Shown here: positions 3,247-35,708 of the stretch, in pieces
Layout of the letters: the number at the start of each line of letters is the position of its first letter
Numbering within the stretch: position 1 is the stretch's first letter
From: a virus
Direction: 5' to 3' (one strand)
Virus record (IMG/VR): IMGVR_UViG_3300012532_000006
Span: 1-40,752 of that record
DNA length: 40,752 nt
Notes under the pieces: generated by a model
The model's database searches: none
What the model was told of the DNA's origin: nothing
Seen by the model: only the letters and a program-made list of their open reading frames with translations
Made by a program: the position numbers and the translations under genes

Positions 3247-3411
3247 TTATTGAGCTGCTTTGCGTTCTTCTATGAGTTCTTTCAGAGAGTAGATAAGATA
3301 GTCAATATCTTTTCCCGTCTCTCTTTGTAGTTCTGCTAATTCAAGCGCAACTTCTAGGCCGTTTATATTACCTATCTGTAACGACTCTTTTATAAGAAAG
3401 TTGTCTTCCAT
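3247..3411 (-). CDS. Small acidic hypothetical protein, 54 aa (first gene of the early operon)
   Basis: ATG 3411 is selected because GGGAGGT lies at good spacing. An upstream in-frame start at 3462 has no site and would run into a hairpin. The product is helical and charged (LEVALELAELQRETGKDIDY), possibly a small coiled dimer. It is not recognised. It is the first minus-strand gene after the structured non-coding kilobase. Confidence 0.65.
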   Translation of the reverse strand: MEDNFLIKESLQIGNINGLEVALELAELQRETGKDIDYLIYSLKELIEERKAAQ

Positions 3412-3444
3412 ACATACCTCCCTTTTTTGATTTAATTTCACGTT

Positions 3445-3473
3445 CCTTACGCACTCTCGCATTGTGCGTAAGG
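3445..3473. other. 10-bp inverted repeat upstream of the early operon
   Basis: CCTTACGCAC (3445-3454) and its exact complement (3464-3473) with a 9-bp loop, 34 bp upstream of the first early gene. No T-run follows, so an operator or the base of a leader hairpin is more likely than a terminator. CCTTAC can alternatively pair with GTAAGG at 3878-3883, next to the long 17-bp stem. Confidence 0.7.
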
Positions 3474-3475
3474 GG

Positions 3476-3876
3476 TTTGTACAGATACATGGCTAGAGCG
3501 TATGGTGCTAGTAGCAAATACCGTGTTCCGTAATGAATGATGAATACGGATTACTTTCAGGGGAATCACCCCACTAGTCTTAATTACTACCAGCACTACT
3601 ACGCTCTAGCTTTGAACTACATAAGAGTCGTTATACTCCCAGATCTTACGGTATAGGTTGTGGCATTACTTATGTAGCCATGTTTGAACATATAAGGCAG
3701 GGATTTGACGAGACGTAGGAACGGAATATAGCCGGTCCATCTTGTCGTAACTCGTATAGTCACCCTGCATGCCCACACATTTGAGTAGTGGGGCGGCGAG
3801 TCCGGTCGGACTTCTCCTAGGCTCATGCATCGCGTCTATCTATTCCGCCACTTATATGTCCATGTATCTGTACAAA
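3476..3876. ncRNA. Candidate large structured RNA, main domain (strand undecided)
   Basis: No credible coding frame, but nested perfect stems. P1, 17 bp: 3476-3492 with 3860-3876. P2, 11 bp: 3492-3502 with 3600-3610, extended by GTGCT/AGCAC and GTAG/CTAC. P3, 9 bp: 3618-3626 with 3669-3677. P4, 9 bp: 3688-3696 with 3851-3859, directly abutting P1. Then GCAGGG/CCCTGC (3697-3702, 3763-3768), ACGAG/CTCGT (3708-3712, 3751-3755), and local hairpins at 3527-3550, 3560-3572, 3772-3792 and 3799-3812. The size and closed multi-branch form recall ornate phage RNAs such as GOLLD and ROOL, but I cannot assign a family. If minus strand, it would be the leader of the early operon. Purine-rich loops slightly favour the plus strand. 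Confidence 0.55.
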
Positions 3877-3932
3877 GTAAGGATGGCTGCACTTCATTTT
3901 CGATGCGACATTAAACGCCTGCAACGGTTTGG

Positions 3933-4129
3933 CGCTCACCACTTACTCACGCTGAATCTCCCAACCAAACCCATCGTCTATCTATAGCTACTGTTAGTTC
4001 ACTATTCCCGCTACACAGGTTCCACCCTGAACAGGTTTGGAAGGTCGAGTTGTAAATGTTCTCCGATTGCTAGTGGCTAGCACCCTACAATATGTGGTGA
4101 GCGGTCGCAATCTCAGGTTTTGTGACCTG
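3933..4129. ncRNA. Candidate structured RNA, second domain
   Basis: A second nested fold follows the first. Outer stem CGCTCACCAC (3933-3942) pairs exactly with 4094-4103. Inside are CCAAACC/GGTTTGG (3965-3971, 4034-4040) and a six-pair hairpin TGCTAG-TGG-CTAGCA (4068-4082). Just outside is CAGGT/ACCTG (4114-4118, 4125-4129). It may belong to the same transcript as 3476-3876. The bases between the two domains (3877-3932) show nothing I can name. Confidence 0.45.
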
Positions 4130-4136
4130 CGGAGGA

Positions 4137-4156
4137 ATCACTTTGTAATTTGACGC
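4137..4156 (+). repeat. 20-bp inverted repeat, left copy, flanking the integrase block
   Basis: The 20 bases here (ATCACTTTGT then AATTTGACGC) recur exactly, in reverse orientation, at 5948-5967. The two copies bracket three terminators, the integrase and the 89-aa gene. Candidate roles are recombination sites, a paired regulatory sequence, or a shared 3'-end element, since each copy sits just upstream of a hairpin. Confidence 0.85.
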
Positions 4157-4170
4157 CCCCGTTGGGTAAC

Positions 4171-4200
4171 AAAAATCCACCTCGTATTAAGAGGTGGATT
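4171..4200 (-). terminator. Intrinsic terminator, minus strand (third of three)
   Basis: Ten-pair perfect stem AATCCACCTC/GAGGTGGATT with a 7-base loop, followed on the minus strand by TTTTTG. It isolates the structured non-coding region from integrase transcription. Confidence 0.75.
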
Positions 4201-4244
4201 ACCAAAGAGATAGCCGCCAGTTGCTACGAGATCGTACAAGGGAA

Positions 4245-4274
4245 CAAAAAATCCCCATTATCTTCATAACAGGG
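4245..4274 (-). terminator. Intrinsic terminator, minus strand (second of three)
   Basis: Nine-pair stem (4253-4261 with 4266-4274). Two pairs are G-U wobbles only on the minus-strand RNA and become mismatches on the plus strand, and six T follow on the minus strand. This fixes the direction. Confidence 0.75.
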
Positions 4275-4303
4275 ACTAAAATACTTGACAGAAACAGATT
4301 TAA

Positions 4304-4330
4304 CTAAAAAACCTGCCTCTGTAGGCAGGT
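4304..4330 (-). terminator. Intrinsic terminator, minus strand (first, integrase end)
   Basis: Eight-pair perfect stem ACCTGCCT/AGGCAGGT with a 4-base loop, followed by TTTTTT on the minus strand. It lies about 125 bp past the integrase stop and is the natural end of that transcript. Confidence 0.85.
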
Positions 4331-5803: not shown

Positions 5804-5869
5804 GCCTAAACCTATTTCATTGTTGACATGCCGAAAACTCTATAGCGTTTTTAAGCAATCCACGACGGT

Positions 5870-5912
5870 AAAACAAAAGACTCCCCTACCCACGAATGGG
5901 TTGAGAGGAGTC
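5870..5912 (-). terminator. Terminator of the late operon, minus strand
   Basis: Stem GACTCC (5879-5884) with GGAGTC (5907-5912), inside which ACCCA-CGAA-TGGGT forms a second stem. TCTTTTGTTTT follows on the minus strand. Upstream is a further CTCTCG/CGAGAG hairpin. It ends transcription after the holin gene. Confidence 0.85.
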
Positions 5913-5947
5913 GTATTGTTTCCTCTCGTTGGCCGAAACCTTCGAGA

Positions 5948-5967
5948 GCGTCAAATTACAAAGTGAT
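5948..5967 (-). repeat. 20-bp inverted repeat, right copy
   Basis: Exact reverse complement of 4137-4156. It sits between the holin stop and the late terminator hairpins. See the left copy for possible roles. Confidence 0.85.
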
Positions 5968-6003
5968 ATTCATATATTAGCACACAAATTGTAGATCTGC
6001 AAC

Positions 6004-10888: not shown

Positions 10889-13800
10889 CTACACGTTGCT
10901 CTTCTTTAGGGCAACAGTGGGCTTTGAAGCTTTGCCAGAAGCAATCTTTATAGGGGTTATTTTCCTATTCTTTCCGCTGGGCTTTTTATGCTCTCCTCCA
11001 GTCTTCAAAGAGACGGCATAAGCGTAGTTGGACTTGCCTAAGCCGGACCCCTTACCACCTCTACCACCACGTGATGTACTGCTCCCCGTGGTTTGTGCGC
11101 CACTCGTAGGTTCTAACCCTCTTTTTTCACGCTGTTTATTCTGCCAGTCATCAACTTTGGCAAATTGGTTCTGCATTGCACTCCAAGCTGTAGGATTCGC
11201 CTTTATCCATGCTGAACGTGATCCGTTCCCTTTCGGGAGGCTCGAGTAGGAGTTCATTGCGTTTTGTACATCTGAAGAAGCAGTCGGGTATGGGTTTGAA
11301 GAAGAGCTAAACTTGTCCATCGACGCAGTTATTGAGTCAACTTTCTTCGTATCACCCGTAGCTCGTGCAGTAGCAAGGTCTTTAGCCTGGTTATCCTGAA
11401 TCGCTTTGAAGAAGCCGCTTTTCTTAACAGCATAGTCTGAGTACCATTCCTGTTTGTATAAATTACTTAACTCGGGGTCTTTTGTCCCTGGTGGGAGGTT
11501 GTCTTTTTCGAGAACCTTTTTTACTTGTGCAGGGTTCAGGTCGAAAAGTGGGTTACCTGGCTTTCCTAAGTCACGGTTGTTCTTATCTAGTTGCTTGTCT
11601 GCCTCGAATACTTTCGGGAAGCGGTTATATATATCTAATCTTGCCGCTGGATTATATGTGGAGTCAGCTTCGTAAACTTGTTCACCGAGGAAGTTCTTTG
11701 TAGTAGGGTGAAGGGAAGTAAAGGCAGCTTTTTCGTTCTGATTGAGGCTAGCAGTGGCCTTCGCAACGTTATCAAAGTGTTTTGCTCCCTCACTCTTGTT
11801 GGCGTTATCAATGCCCTGAGCAGACCCAAAACTCTTTCTAAGCCCTTCTTGTATAGATTGGCCCCCCACCTGGTCTTTAGGAATAACCCCAGCACCCGCT
11901 AACGTGCTATCGACGGCGTTCAGTGCTTGCAGACCAACCGTACCCGCAGTATCTTTTACGAACTTTTCAACTCGTATGGGTGAGACACCTAAGGCCGAGC
12001 CAATACCACGAGCTGTGCCCGACGAGTGGGTAGTTGCCTTTTGAGCCTCTGGTACTGGGTTTCCCTCAGCGTCAGTTGCCTGGTTTATATAATCGGGAAC
12101 GATGGTTTTTCCGCTAAATAAGTCTTTATTGGCATATTGTTGCACAAAGGGTTTAGCCGCTTGAGGGAGAAACGAACCACCAAAAGCCTCTGGAGATTGA
12201 ACAGAAACTGGACCGCTAACAGTCTGAAGGATGTCTTGGGCCATTTGCCCGTATTCGGCTGGTTTGTCGTGAGCGTATGCCTCCATCGCCCTTCTAATAG
12301 GCATGAATGCATCTTTCCATCCTGGAGCGAGAGGAATTTTTACCACGTCGTAGGACCCATCCTGGTTTTGTTGAGTTCCAGGAGGCACAAGAATGAGATT
12401 ATTCTCTTTTTCATATTCAGGAATATTGTCGTAAATAGCGGCTGTATCGGGGCTCGAGAGGTTCCACGCCGTGGCGGCTGCCAGAGGCACACCAACAAGC
12501 GCAGTCGCTGTAAGTGAAGATTTAATTGGATGTTTCGTAAGGGTTCTTGCCATCTGACGAACACCTTGTGTTGCGGGGTTCCAGTAAGGAACGACTGTAT
12601 TAATCGCTCTACCCCATGTTCCAGCACGGCTAAAGTCTACTGAGTTCTGCCAAGCAGCCATTGCGGCCCTTTCGCTTGCTTGTTCTGGCGGTAGGCCTTT
12701 GCTGATAGCGTCTTTATAAGCTCCTCTATAGTTCTGGAAGCGAGTAGACTTTTCGGTTATTGAGGCGACATTTTCAGCCGTACGAATAGGTGACTTCAGG
12801 GCCTGACCTACACCGACCAGCTTGCCACCACGAATGCGATTTATAACTTGCTGGGTATCTTTTATATTCCTGGTAAGGTCGTAACTCGTCGTGTCGCCGT
12901 AATGCTTGAGGAAATCTTGGTAGAGCGGGTCGTGGTTTGCTCCTAGCGCATCTTTTGTGGCGTTAAAGAGTCCACTAAAAAACGATACTGGGTTATGAGT
13001 CCTCGCTAATTGTTCGGAGTTGATCGCTGTGCCTACCTGGTCCTTTAGGAGGTTCCTTGCAATAAATATAGGGTTAAGACCCGTGACACCAGCCCGTAAC
13101 ACACGCCCAGGAGCTGCGAGTATCTGCATAACGGCGTTCATCTGGTATGGGTTTATGTTATCAATCGCCTGTTTCATATCTGGCGACACTTTATAGTACT
13201 CAGTTTTACCGTCGCGGATTAGCTTTGACGTGTTCTGGTGTCTTGCAGCGGCGGCGCTATCTAGTTTCTGCGCGAGGCCGTGTTGCGATAATGTATCAAG
13301 CAACTGCGTGCTCGTCTTATTTTTAGCAGCCTCTTTGTAAATCTGTTGTGTGTAGTTCGCAGCTGTTTCACCGGCAGGGAGTACATCACGTGAAGAACCT
13401 TTACGTTTCTGGTTCAGGACGGTACTGCCAAGAGAGTAGCTATTTCCTTTACCGAAACTATCAGGCAACAGATCACCCATATCTCTCTGGATACGGATGT
13501 AGTTATTATCAGCTTTATATCTATTGAGCGTTTCGCTACTAATAAGGCCGTTCTGGTGGGCGTAGTCAGCTAGATCTTTGTAATGCTGGTTGAGTGCGTC
13601 GAAGCGAGGACCGTGAGCCTCCTGGCCGTTATCAATAATTGTTTTCAGTTCTTCGGGTGTTTTGCTTAAACTAGTCCCAGGTTGGGCACTCCCTAATTCC
13701 GTTCGAGCGTTGGCGTAATCGCTAAACGCCTTGTAGTCCTTCTTGCTCAGCCCACCGATAGCGTTTTGTATATTTTCGGATGTTTGCAGGTTAACATTCG

Positions 13801-33727: not shown

Positions 33728-33948
33728 CACCTTGACCCCTGTTTATTGACTAATTCATCCATTTTGATACGCATCCTGTTCACTGGTTTCCTTAGAGAAG
33801 GGATATTGTTTGACCCCTTGATAGCTTTCCATGCCACTTGCTGTTCGTGCGTCAGGACGACACCTCTTTTTTGTAGTATTTCCAAATAGTAGCTCACACA
33901 CACCTCGCCGGCATCTCTTTGAAATGCATTTCTTTTAGTTCGTGACAC
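33727..33948 (-). CDS. Hypothetical protein, 73 aa
   Basis: Starts at GTG 33948 with GGTGAG. Helical and basic (SYYLEILQKRGVVLTHEQQV, RKPVNRMRIKMDELVNKQG). It overlaps the 55-aa membrane gene by 55 bp in another frame, an unusually long overlap, so one start may lie elsewhere. Confidence 0.5.
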   Translation of the reverse strand: MSRTKRNAFQRDAGEVCVSYYLEILQKRGVVLTHEQQVAWKAIKGSNNIPSLRKPVNRMRIKMDELVNKQGSR

Positions 33949-34061
33949 GATACGCTCACCCTTGTGTCCATCCAGGATGTAAACAGCATTGTGGAGATAA
34001 TGACCAAACCAGCCAAAATAAGGAGTGTTGCCCCTAGAACTGTTTCAATGTTTAGCTTCAT
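33894..34061 (-). CDS. Single-span membrane protein, 55 aa
   Basis: Strong AAGGAG before ATG 34061. A hydrophobic span about residues 7-28 (VLGATLLILAGLVIISTMLF), then a tail with WMDTRVSVSCHELKEMHFKE and a final Cys. It opens the operon that runs to 31312 and lies just after the structured spacer. Role unknown; a small membrane effector is possible. Confidence 0.6.
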   Translation of the reverse strand: MKLNIETVLGATLLILAGLVIISTMLFTSWMDTRVSVSCHELKEMHFKEMPARCV

Positions 34062-34086
34062 TCTATCTCCTTCCTGTTTTAGTAAG

Positions 34087-34254
34087 ACTCCAGGTAAGGG
34101 TGGGCATCACCTGAAGTCGTATCAAGACACGAATATGGAGACAAGACAAGGATGGGTCGGGAGATATGCCCAGACTTACTAACTACTCCCCAGGCTGGCT
34201 GTCTACTATGCCCCATCGGTAAGCTTTTCTAGAATCTTGCCCACTTGTCTCCAT
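34087..34254. other. Structured non-coding leader before the 34.06-31.3 kb operon
   Basis: Non-coding region 34062-34425 with nested pairs: 34087-34095 with 34109-34117 (one mismatch or wobble), ATGGAGACAAG (34135-34145) with its exact complement (34244-34254), and inside it GATGGG/CCCATC (34151-34156, 34212-34217). The stretch 34255-34425 has no gene. Like 3476-4129, it precedes an early minus-strand gene block, so it may be a regulatory leader or small RNA. Confidence 0.45.
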
Positions 34255-34404
34255 GTAAACGTTTGAATACTCGTAGGGAGACAACGTGGAAAATAGTAAC
34301 CTGCACTCTCTCAAGTGTGTACGTTACGTCCGTTGTGCTGCCCTATGATGCCCTAAACTGGCGGAATAGGACACCCTATAAGTATTCAAACTAAAAGCCG
34401 ATTA

Positions 34405-34438
34405 ATTAGTTCCAAGTAATTACCTTTAGTATAGCACA
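34405..34438 (-). promoter_or_regulatory. Possible early promoter resembling the late motif
   Basis: Minus strand: TGTGCTATACT (34428-34438), 17 bp, then ACTAAT (34405-34410). It is a weaker copy of the TTTRCTATACA-17-TATAAT arrangement, and would transcribe the structured leader and following operon. Confidence 0.35.
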
Positions 34439-34581
34439 ACAGATAGAGATGTGCAATATGCTATCCATTTTATAGCTTCTTTTTCACTATCTAGTAAAGG
34501 ACTCTCTATCCTTGCTCCTTTTATGTACGCTATGGCCATAAATTGGTTCCCTACCTTGAATATGCCTGCTTTTGTGATCAT
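34426..34581 (-). CDS. Small hypothetical protein, 51 aa
   Basis: AGGAGGT sits 5 bp before ATG 34581, one of the best ribosome sites in the window. The product (MITKAGIFKVGNQFMAIAYI, LDSEKEAIKWIAYCTSL) is a compact alpha/beta-looking peptide without a known family. It stands alone between the CCA terminator and the structured leader. Confidence 0.65.
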   Translation of the reverse strand: MITKAGIFKVGNQFMAIAYIKGARIESPLLDSEKEAIKWIAYCTSLSVVLY

Positions 34582-34609
34582 AATCACCTCCTACAACTTA
34601 TTGTGAGGG

Positions 34610-34645
34610 AATATGCGTATTTTTATCGGATCTCTGTATAGCAAA
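34610..34645 (-). promoter_or_regulatory. Possible promoter for the 51-aa gene, late-motif half-site
   Basis: TTTGCTATACA (minus strand, 34635-34645) matches the late -35-like motif exactly. A possible -10 CATATT lies at 34610-34615, 19 bp away rather than 17. The half-site overlaps the CCA terminator stem. Confidence 0.35.
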
Positions 34646-34672
34646 TAACTCCCTTAACGGGGAGTTATTTGC
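34641..34672. terminator. Bidirectional terminator after the CCA gene
   Basis: Perfect 13-bp stem GCAAATAACTCCC (34641-34653) with its complement (34660-34672) and a 6-base loop. T/A-rich stem ends (TTATTTGC) give a T-rich 3' side on both strands. Confidence 0.7.
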
Positions 34673-34718
34673 TTGTGTCCAAATTCAAACTTTCGTTTGA
34701 CTGATCTTATTATACCAC

Positions 34719-35708
34719 TTACTGGAGTTTGCTTTTGCTTGAGTTATCGGCCTGCCGCAATGGACTTGCATCATCTAAGTGGTAACCAACTAGCTCCTTC
34801 ACAATCCTCAAGCGCTCATTTGACCACTTGAGGCGTTTTCCTATGCCGTAAATCAGCTCTGCACCAATAGCATCATGGAATACGTAGTTGCTTGAGCCGC
34901 GCTTGTTATCCGTCCTTACAAAGGGTTTACCAATATCATGTAGTAGTGCAGCCCACCGCAAGTTTAGTATTTTTGGTACTTTTCCGACTGTGGCGATTGT
35001 ATGCTCAAGTAGAGTTAGTTCGTGCCAGTCGCTATTTTGATCGTATCCCACTTGTAGGCGTAGTTCAGGTAGCAGGAACTTTAATAGATCAGTCTCGGCT
35101 AGCACTCTAAGCCCATCTGCTACATGATCTCCAAGTAACAGCTTGTCTAGTTCCTGTATCCAGCGCTCTTTACTCACACCTAGTATTTTGTGAGCGCTCT
35201 TTTTGATAGAGGCAAACGTCTTAGGCTCGATAGCAAAGCCAAGTTGTGCGACAAATCGTGCGGCACGTAGCATACGCAGAGGATCTTCATTAAAGCGTTC
35301 TGATGGGTTACCTACGGCTTTAATGATCTTAGCCTTAATGTCTTTTCTACCATCAAAGGGATCTATGTATCTAGTTCCTCGCAAAGCGATGGCATTGATA
35401 GTGAAGTCTCGGCGTGACAAGTCTTCGTTTATAGAGGTGACAAACTGCACCTCTGGTTTACGGGTCTTACCATACTGTTCAGATCTGAATGTGGTAACCT
35501 CTATGAACTTACCCTCGTGATTAAACCCGATTGTGCCGAAGCGCTTACCGATGCCATAGGCTCGTTTTCCGGCGGCCTTAACTTTGCTTTCTATTTCGTC
35601 AGGGAGCAGTGGCGTTGCGTAATCATGGTCATGAGGTTCACGGCCAAGCAGCGTATCACGTACTGAACCGCCAACCAAGTATACTGGGGATATTATTTCT
35701 TCGATCAT
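34719..35708 (-). CDS. CCA tRNA nucleotidyltransferase-type enzyme, 329 aa
   Basis: Class II CCA-adding / poly(A) polymerase-family enzyme that builds or repairs tRNA 3' CCA. The head domain has YLVGGSVRDTLLGR (10-23), HDHDYAT (D27/D29) and SRRDFTINAIAL (98-109, base-selection motif). The neck ERFNEDPLRMLRAARFVAQL (138-157) and an HD domain with LLHDIGKP (255-262) follow. It is shorter than most bacterial HD-fused enzymes. The end after YHLDD is brief, so the C-terminal region may be trimmed. Phage copies are uncommon, and here it shares a region with RNA-end-repair genes. Confidence 0.9.
   Translation of the reverse strand: MIEEIISPVYLVGGSVRDTLLGREPHDHDYATPLLPDEIESKVKAAGKRAYGIGKRFGTIGFNHEGKFIEVTTFRSEQYGKTRKPEVQFVTSINEDLSRRDFTINAIALRGTRYIDPFDGRKDIKAKIIKAVGNPSERFNEDPLRMLRAARFVAQLGFAIEPKTFASIKKSAHKILGVSKERWIQELDKLLLGDHVADGLRVLAETDLLKFLLPELRLQVGYDQNSDWHELTLLEHTIATVGKVPKILNLRWAALLHDIGKPFVRTDNKRGSSNYVFHDAIGAELIYGIGKRLKWSNERLRIVKELVGYHLDDASPLRQADNSSKSKLQ

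Follow-up and report, generated by a model that had tools for sequence, protein, structure and literature searches.

The window analysed here is the whole of a 40,752-base virus record carrying genes for a terminase, capsid, portal, exonuclease and tyrosine integrase. Genes near 3.5 kb lie on the minus strand, and a structured stretch is found 3' of the integrase gene, past a run of minus-strand terminator-like hairpins. Four such hairpins, overlapping or consecutive, were located between the integrase and the RNA (4174-4330, minus strand). No credible gene had been recognized in the stretch when it was read from sequence alone, and this was upheld: the only overlapping ORFs encode 69 aa and 72 aa, neither of them credible. 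For the small gene that follows the RNA (3247-3462, minus strand), a start near 3412, preceded by GGGAGG, is more likely than one at 3462, which would place the RNA just upstream of a ribosome-binding site.

The sequence-only reading had reported stems of 17, 11, 10, 9 and 9 bp, with the 17-bp stem stacked on one of the 9-bp stems. All five were located in the sequence (Table 1), and the stacking was borne out, the 9-bp partner being the acceptor-like helix. An additional 9-bp pairing (3487-3495/3675-3683) and the 17-bp stem are competing, mutually exclusive structures. Positions 3440-4160 folded at -246.4 kcal/mol (z -6.0) on the minus strand and -238.1 kcal/mol (z -5.2) on the plus strand, and none of 20 shuffles folded as well for either strand, in keeping with the earlier judgement that chance pairing was very unlikely. 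Few non-coding gaps in this genome or in those of its relatives are as structured. The RNA was assigned to the minus strand because of the sense of its tRNA-like part and the orientation of the neighbouring genes. Its best-supported unit is 3476-3876, and it probably extends over 3445-4160. In the minus-strand fold the closing helix (P1) is stacked on the acceptor-like helix, and inside it lie the tRNA-like domain and hairpins B and C. The whole forms a 0.4-kb junction of 17-bp P1, tRNA-like domain and two hairpins. Positions 3880-4160 are structured, and the homologue search found no counterpart for them.

Table 1. Features of the structured RNA in the window.
Feature	Position	Strand	Basis or remark
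RNA unit: junction of P1, tRNA-like domain and hairpins B and C	3476-3876	-	One closed junction predicted; same in L076 and L117
17-bp stem (P1)	3476-3492/3860-3876		Perfect inverted repeat
P1 5' strand, 17-bp closing helix	3860-3876	-	Perfect inverted repeat; different 17/18-bp helix in L076
P1 3' strand	3476-3492	-	Perfect inverted repeat; replaced in L076
tRNA-Leu-like domain	3688-3859	-	Acceptor helix, D-arm and T-arm; no anticodon arm, no CCA
Acceptor-like helix (9 bp), 5' strand	3851-3859	-	R1 match 109 bits; covariation
Acceptor-like helix (9 bp), 3' strand, no CCA after	3688-3696	-	R1 match; covariation
D-arm TGGCGGAATAGATAGACGC, tRNA-Leu type	3832-3850	-	Identical in most family copies
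Variable domain replacing anticodon arm, 61 nt	3771-3831	-	Unalignable among copies
T-stem 5' strand GCAGGG	3763-3768	-	100% paired in 42 copies
T-loop inserted helix GACTATACGAG...CTCG with variable tip	3709-3761	-	Insert helix covaries
T-loop remainder TCAAAT and T-stem 3' strand CCCTGC	3697-3708	-	Family copies; covariation
Hairpin B, 9-bp base CTACATAAG/CTTATGTAG	3617-3677	-	Two compensatory changes in L076
9-bp stem	3617-3625/3669-3677		
Hairpin C with second module GTAGTGCTGGTAGTAA (within 3584-3608)/TTGCTACTAGCACCAT (within 3493-3517)	3492-3610	-	Module also in L074, L076, L112 and L117
11-bp stem	3492-3502/3600-3610		
5' structured domain, RNA membership uncertain	3880-4160	-	Inside z -6 fold; no homologue found
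10-bp hairpin 3' of RNA, without T-run	3445-3473	-	Possible 3' boundary
10-bp stem	3445-3454/3464-3473		

TerL, capsid and tail proteins led to relatives of the phage; the integrase protein used as bait returned none. Among these relatives only G034 showed collinear short matches to the window RNA; the RNA was absent from the others. Read on the minus strand, the G034 matches comprised a tRNA-Leu D-arm TGGCGGAATAGGTAGACGC, from which the window differs by one base, and an interrupted T-arm, GCAGGG T GACTATACGAG...CTCG TCAAAT CCCTGC. A search pattern built on this gapped T-arm (pattern 1) matched 14 viral stretches; with the outer T-stem left free (pattern 2), 39 viral stretches and 4 GTDB contigs were matched, against an estimated chance expectation of <1 for pattern 2 in the viral set. 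Most pattern matches had a clear tRNA-Leu-type D-arm ~65-175 nt upstream; in a few it was degenerate or none was recognized. A covariance model, R1, was built from 42 copies. Together, the motif scan and R1 yielded about 60 copies, that of the window among them, from 51 records that are mostly phages (as tallied from the R1 table, with a few copies from near-identical records). R1 matched 50 of the 51 records, and several carried two to three copies. Beyond the window, the core was thus carried by about 50 phages, mostly unrelated, and many copies were stand-alone RNAs of ~150-250 nt set tightly between genes. By blastn, deposited phages yielded no match to the whole RNA. The single convincing match among 50,697 deposited phage records was one metagenome-assembled genome; deposited cultured phages gave none. 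Long, well-folding non-coding regions without the tRNA-like core were also seen in relatives of the window phage (L023:1-1622 and G017:17062-18172, the latter being L042).

Across 42 distinct copies and 23 pairs, 93.5% of cells were standard pairs, and pairing fell to 39-47% when partner columns were slid by 1-3. Two-sided changes occupied 223 cells, compared with a shuffled mean of 69.4 (0 of 500 shuffles as high). The acceptor helix had been left out of the search pattern, and nine of its ten pairs carried two-sided changes; one pair occurred as GC 13, AU 11, CG 9 and UA 6 times. Variation in the outer T-stem and the D-stem kept pairing, and variants of the inserted helix stayed paired: CGAG/CTCG, CTAG/CTAG, CAGG/CCTG and CTCG/CGAG. 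Conservation of the inner T-arm was partly built in by the search pattern. Copies found only by the model deviated from the motif: GTCGAATCC in L117, GGCAAATCC in L111 and another insert in L120. The proposal of a large structured RNA is supported by this covariation, and the copies very probably constitute a new family of covarying structured RNA.

In each of four bacterial genomes searched, R1 also gave weaker matches of ~87-93 nt; the four that were examined, one per genome, were tRNA-Leu genes with CAA or CAG anticodons. The element shares with bacterial tRNA-Leu a nearly identical D-arm, the T-loop part TCAAAT, the T-stem and the overall order, and so carries both a Leu-type D-arm and a T-arm. 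It differs from tRNA-Leu in lacking an anticodon arm and CCA, in its longer acceptor and in the helix within its T-loop, which in the window copy is split accordingly (GGTGACTATACGAG...CTCGTCAAATCC). The anticodon-arm site held 26-147 nt of variable sequence in family copies, the acceptor helix was often >7 bp, and no anticodon stem-loop, 7-nt T-loop or CCA-ready 3' acceptor was present in the element. Neither ARAGORN nor the Rfam tRNA model recognized it. These comparisons show that the core of the element is derived from tRNA-Leu. Without an anticodon arm, with a long acceptor and without CCA, the element cannot decode, and aminoacylation as it stands is unlikely; the acceptor of >7 bp and missing CCA likewise make ordinary charging by LeuRS unlikely.

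The RNAs of two related phages, L076 and L117, were predicted to form the same type of junction as the window, with fold z-scores of -12.5 and -4.6, respectively. P1 in both was very different in sequence from that of the window, and its changes were compensatory, 17 of 18 pairs being kept in L076. The second module, GTAGTGCTGGTAGTAA/TTGCTACTAGCACCAT, is part of hairpin C in the window, whereas in L074, L076 and L117 it precedes the tRNA-like domain; the order of modules is therefore variable. Searched alone in the viral collection, the module pattern matched L074, L076 and L112 only, and the module is therefore not a general part of the family. Two copies of it were seen in L112, and it sits just upstream of a lysozyme-like (SLT) gene in L112:610-1023 and in L074 near 11000-11473; no tRNA-like core was found in the L112 contig. 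At L117 (G036:3300-8000), a block of 1952 bp or more that contains the entire RNA recurs unchanged 2749 bp away, as a tandem duplication or an assembly artefact.

L076 and L117 were 94-97% identical across the flanks and most helix bases, whereas alignment failed, and lengths were unequal, at the T-loop insert, at the domain replacing the anticodon arm and at three hairpin tips (those of the upstream hairpin and of hairpins B and C). At a second locus of these phages (L118/L120; G036 and G049), identity was 98.7% over 860 nt up to the D-arm, followed by total replacement and then 89.7% identity starting at the 3' T-stem. The case for arm replacement thus comprises one phage pair, two loci and several arms, with flanks 94-99% identical. 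T-inserts of one type also occurred in otherwise unrelated phages whose neighbouring domains were different (L080/L097, 91%; L117/L119, 78%), the latter pair showing by eye a change from GGAG/CTCC to GGGG/CCCC. Another related pair, L103/L107, diverged evenly, and arm replacement is therefore not universal. Comparison of the arms with other DNA in the fetched loci gave nothing convincing beyond the family, and with the genomes carrying L107/L109 or phages G049/G036 only weak matches. The alignments show a conserved scaffold with hypervariable arms that undergo cassette-like replacement.

Family copies lay on the majority strand of nearby ORFs in 41 of 48 cases. No neighbouring gene was constant among the homologues, HNH/endonuclease VII being just slightly recurrent. 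The suggestion of a leader of the recombination operon is not supported, given this and the position of the RNA, which is 3' of the integrase beyond the terminator-like hairpins. A gene for a CCA-adding enzyme was present in just 2 of 44 records. A CCA-adding enzyme-like tRNA nucleotidyltransferase (phrog_2244, 3e-72) is encoded in the window at 34719-35708 (minus strand), although ARAGORN found no tRNA genes there. The adjacent 988-nt non-coding gap (33731-34718; minus-strand fold z about -5) is perhaps a further structured RNA; R1 and Rfam gave nothing above noise in it. A 15-base tandem repeat (GCAGATCAGCATCTT, 3.2 copies) occupies positions 1-48, at the end of the record.

Within the 5' part of the RNA domain, positions 4137-4156 form a perfect 20-nt inverted repeat (ATCACTTTGTAATTTGACGC) with a site upstream of the integrase, against a chance expectation of 0.0008. 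That second site (5865-5970, minus strand) looks like the 5' end of a putative ~100-nt small RNA with its own terminator. Pairing between this small RNA and the 5' hairpin of the large RNA would be feasible (duplex -40.2 kcal/mol). Possible roles of the repeat are as antisense partner, operator or integrase arm sites. Used as a probe, it gave no matches.

As an account of the whole, we put at about even the chances of a trans-acting phage non-coding RNA in which tRNA-Leu has been rebuilt as a scaffold with a docking corner and variable tips. The minus strand of 3476-3876 (probably 3445-4160) would specify this RNA. The D-arm and T-arm are retained, and presumably the tRNA elbow with them; the acceptor stem has turned into a longer helix running into P1. 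The variable domain takes the place of the anticodon arm, a helix has entered the T-loop between the equivalents of positions 54 and 55, and further helices surround the tRNA corner, with arm ends wholly different between close relatives. Whereas this anatomy, the covarying family, the tRNA-Leu origin and the cassette-like arm replacement are shown by the sequences, we infer that the molecule acts in trans as a stable RNA, that its corner docks on a host reader of tRNA-Leu, either LeuRS or some other protein that binds the elbow, and there probably serves as decoy or anchor, and that its variable tips meet a partner subject to diversifying selection, be it host defence, a competing phage or self-recognition.

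Docking on a tRNA-reading factor, taken by itself, is plausible at somewhat less than even chances. LeuRS reads the core of tRNA-Leu, not the anticodon, and the D-arm stays close to tRNA-Leu in phages with little else in common; for these two reasons a factor that reads tRNA-Leu is the leading guess. One point against docking is that the helix within the T-loop may obstruct normal elbow contacts. GOLLD/ROOL-like assembly and then a cis processing signal come after docking as guesses. More tentatively, the exchangeable hypervariable arms on a tRNA-Leu chassis might be the RNA counterpart of variable receptor or effector domains, serving in conflicts between phage and host or among phages (as decoy, immunity type or self-recognition) and exchanged as cassettes between otherwise unrelated phages.

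A self-assembling ornate RNA, in which the elbow is a rigid corner and the arms are oligomer contacts or cage filling, would need no host tRNA factor; this is a lesser but real possibility. It would suit a large multi-helix phage RNA with unfixed module order and variable loops, and GOLLD and ROOL, phage RNAs of unknown function, do assemble and often adjoin tRNA genes (PMC12286853). The many stand-alone copies of ~150-250 nt are small for a cage, however, and a D-arm that stays near tRNA-Leu also speaks against assembly. It is rather improbable that the tRNA-like fold acts in cis on phage mRNAs, as an element for their processing or stability that is cut by RNase P or a similar enzyme. Phage tRNAs in operons are cut likewise, copies lie between closely packed co-directional genes and one copy comes after a tRNA-Gln gene, but arm replacement, the T-loop helix and the 0.4-kb junction of the window would be left unexplained. 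Very little probability attaches to a piece of host tRNA-Leu serving as attP without RNA function: tRNA genes often serve as attB, and the element adjoins a tyrosine integrase in the window and in L103, but both tRNA halves covary, phages carry several copies, most copies have no integrase beside them and no other near-identical copy of the L107 element is present in G081, its genome. Chance folds of single sequences do occur and tRNA relics are found in phages, yet a functionless fold or decaying tRNA is refuted by the compensatory changes, within the limits of the 42-copy alignment, and is at odds with z -6 and with the same odd T-loop insert across otherwise unrelated phages.

With this family, phage tRNA mimicry reaches a split T-loop and a non-decoding core common to otherwise unrelated phages. 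R1, with its 42 copies, provides a model for tracing the RNA family, which may account for part of the unannotated intergenic RNA in uncultivated phages. Through arm replacement amid 94-99% identical neighbourhoods, diversifying selection on RNA structure can be put to the test.

The earlier failure to match any family was confirmed by cmscan with Rfam 15, which gave nothing at gathering thresholds in the window stretch and sub-threshold noise alone at E<=10; elements in 14 homologous loci likewise had no match at gathering thresholds. Catalytic-core models of group I and group II introns had no Rfam match, and a normal tRNA was rejected on the lack of an ARAGORN call and the missing anticodon arm and CCA. 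A tmRNA was called by neither ARAGORN nor Rfam; tmRNA and the element share tRNA-like ends flanking a non-tRNA insert, but the element has a full D-stem and no tag ORF was identified in it. Bacterial Y RNAs (YrlA type, with Ro60) have a tRNA-like domain in which other stems replace the anticodon arm. The element has such a domain too, and differs from YrlA in its split T-loop, in having no Rfam match and in lacking a Ro60 gene alongside: a Ro60 (TROVE) gene was found in 0 of 44 records, in a search confined to these and with the Deinobacterium control positive; a Ro60 supplied by the host is conceivable. The proposed GOLLD/ROOL kind stands loosely, in that the element is an ornate phage RNA, large and elaborate. 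Identity with either is rejected, as neither covariance model matched the window stretch at gathering thresholds or at E<=10; the core is tRNA-derived and most family copies are far smaller. No description of this RNA was found in the literature, where coverage was thin for subscription journals and bioRxiv. We rate the RNA family as new; tRNA mimicry and ornate phage RNA, on which it draws, are already known.
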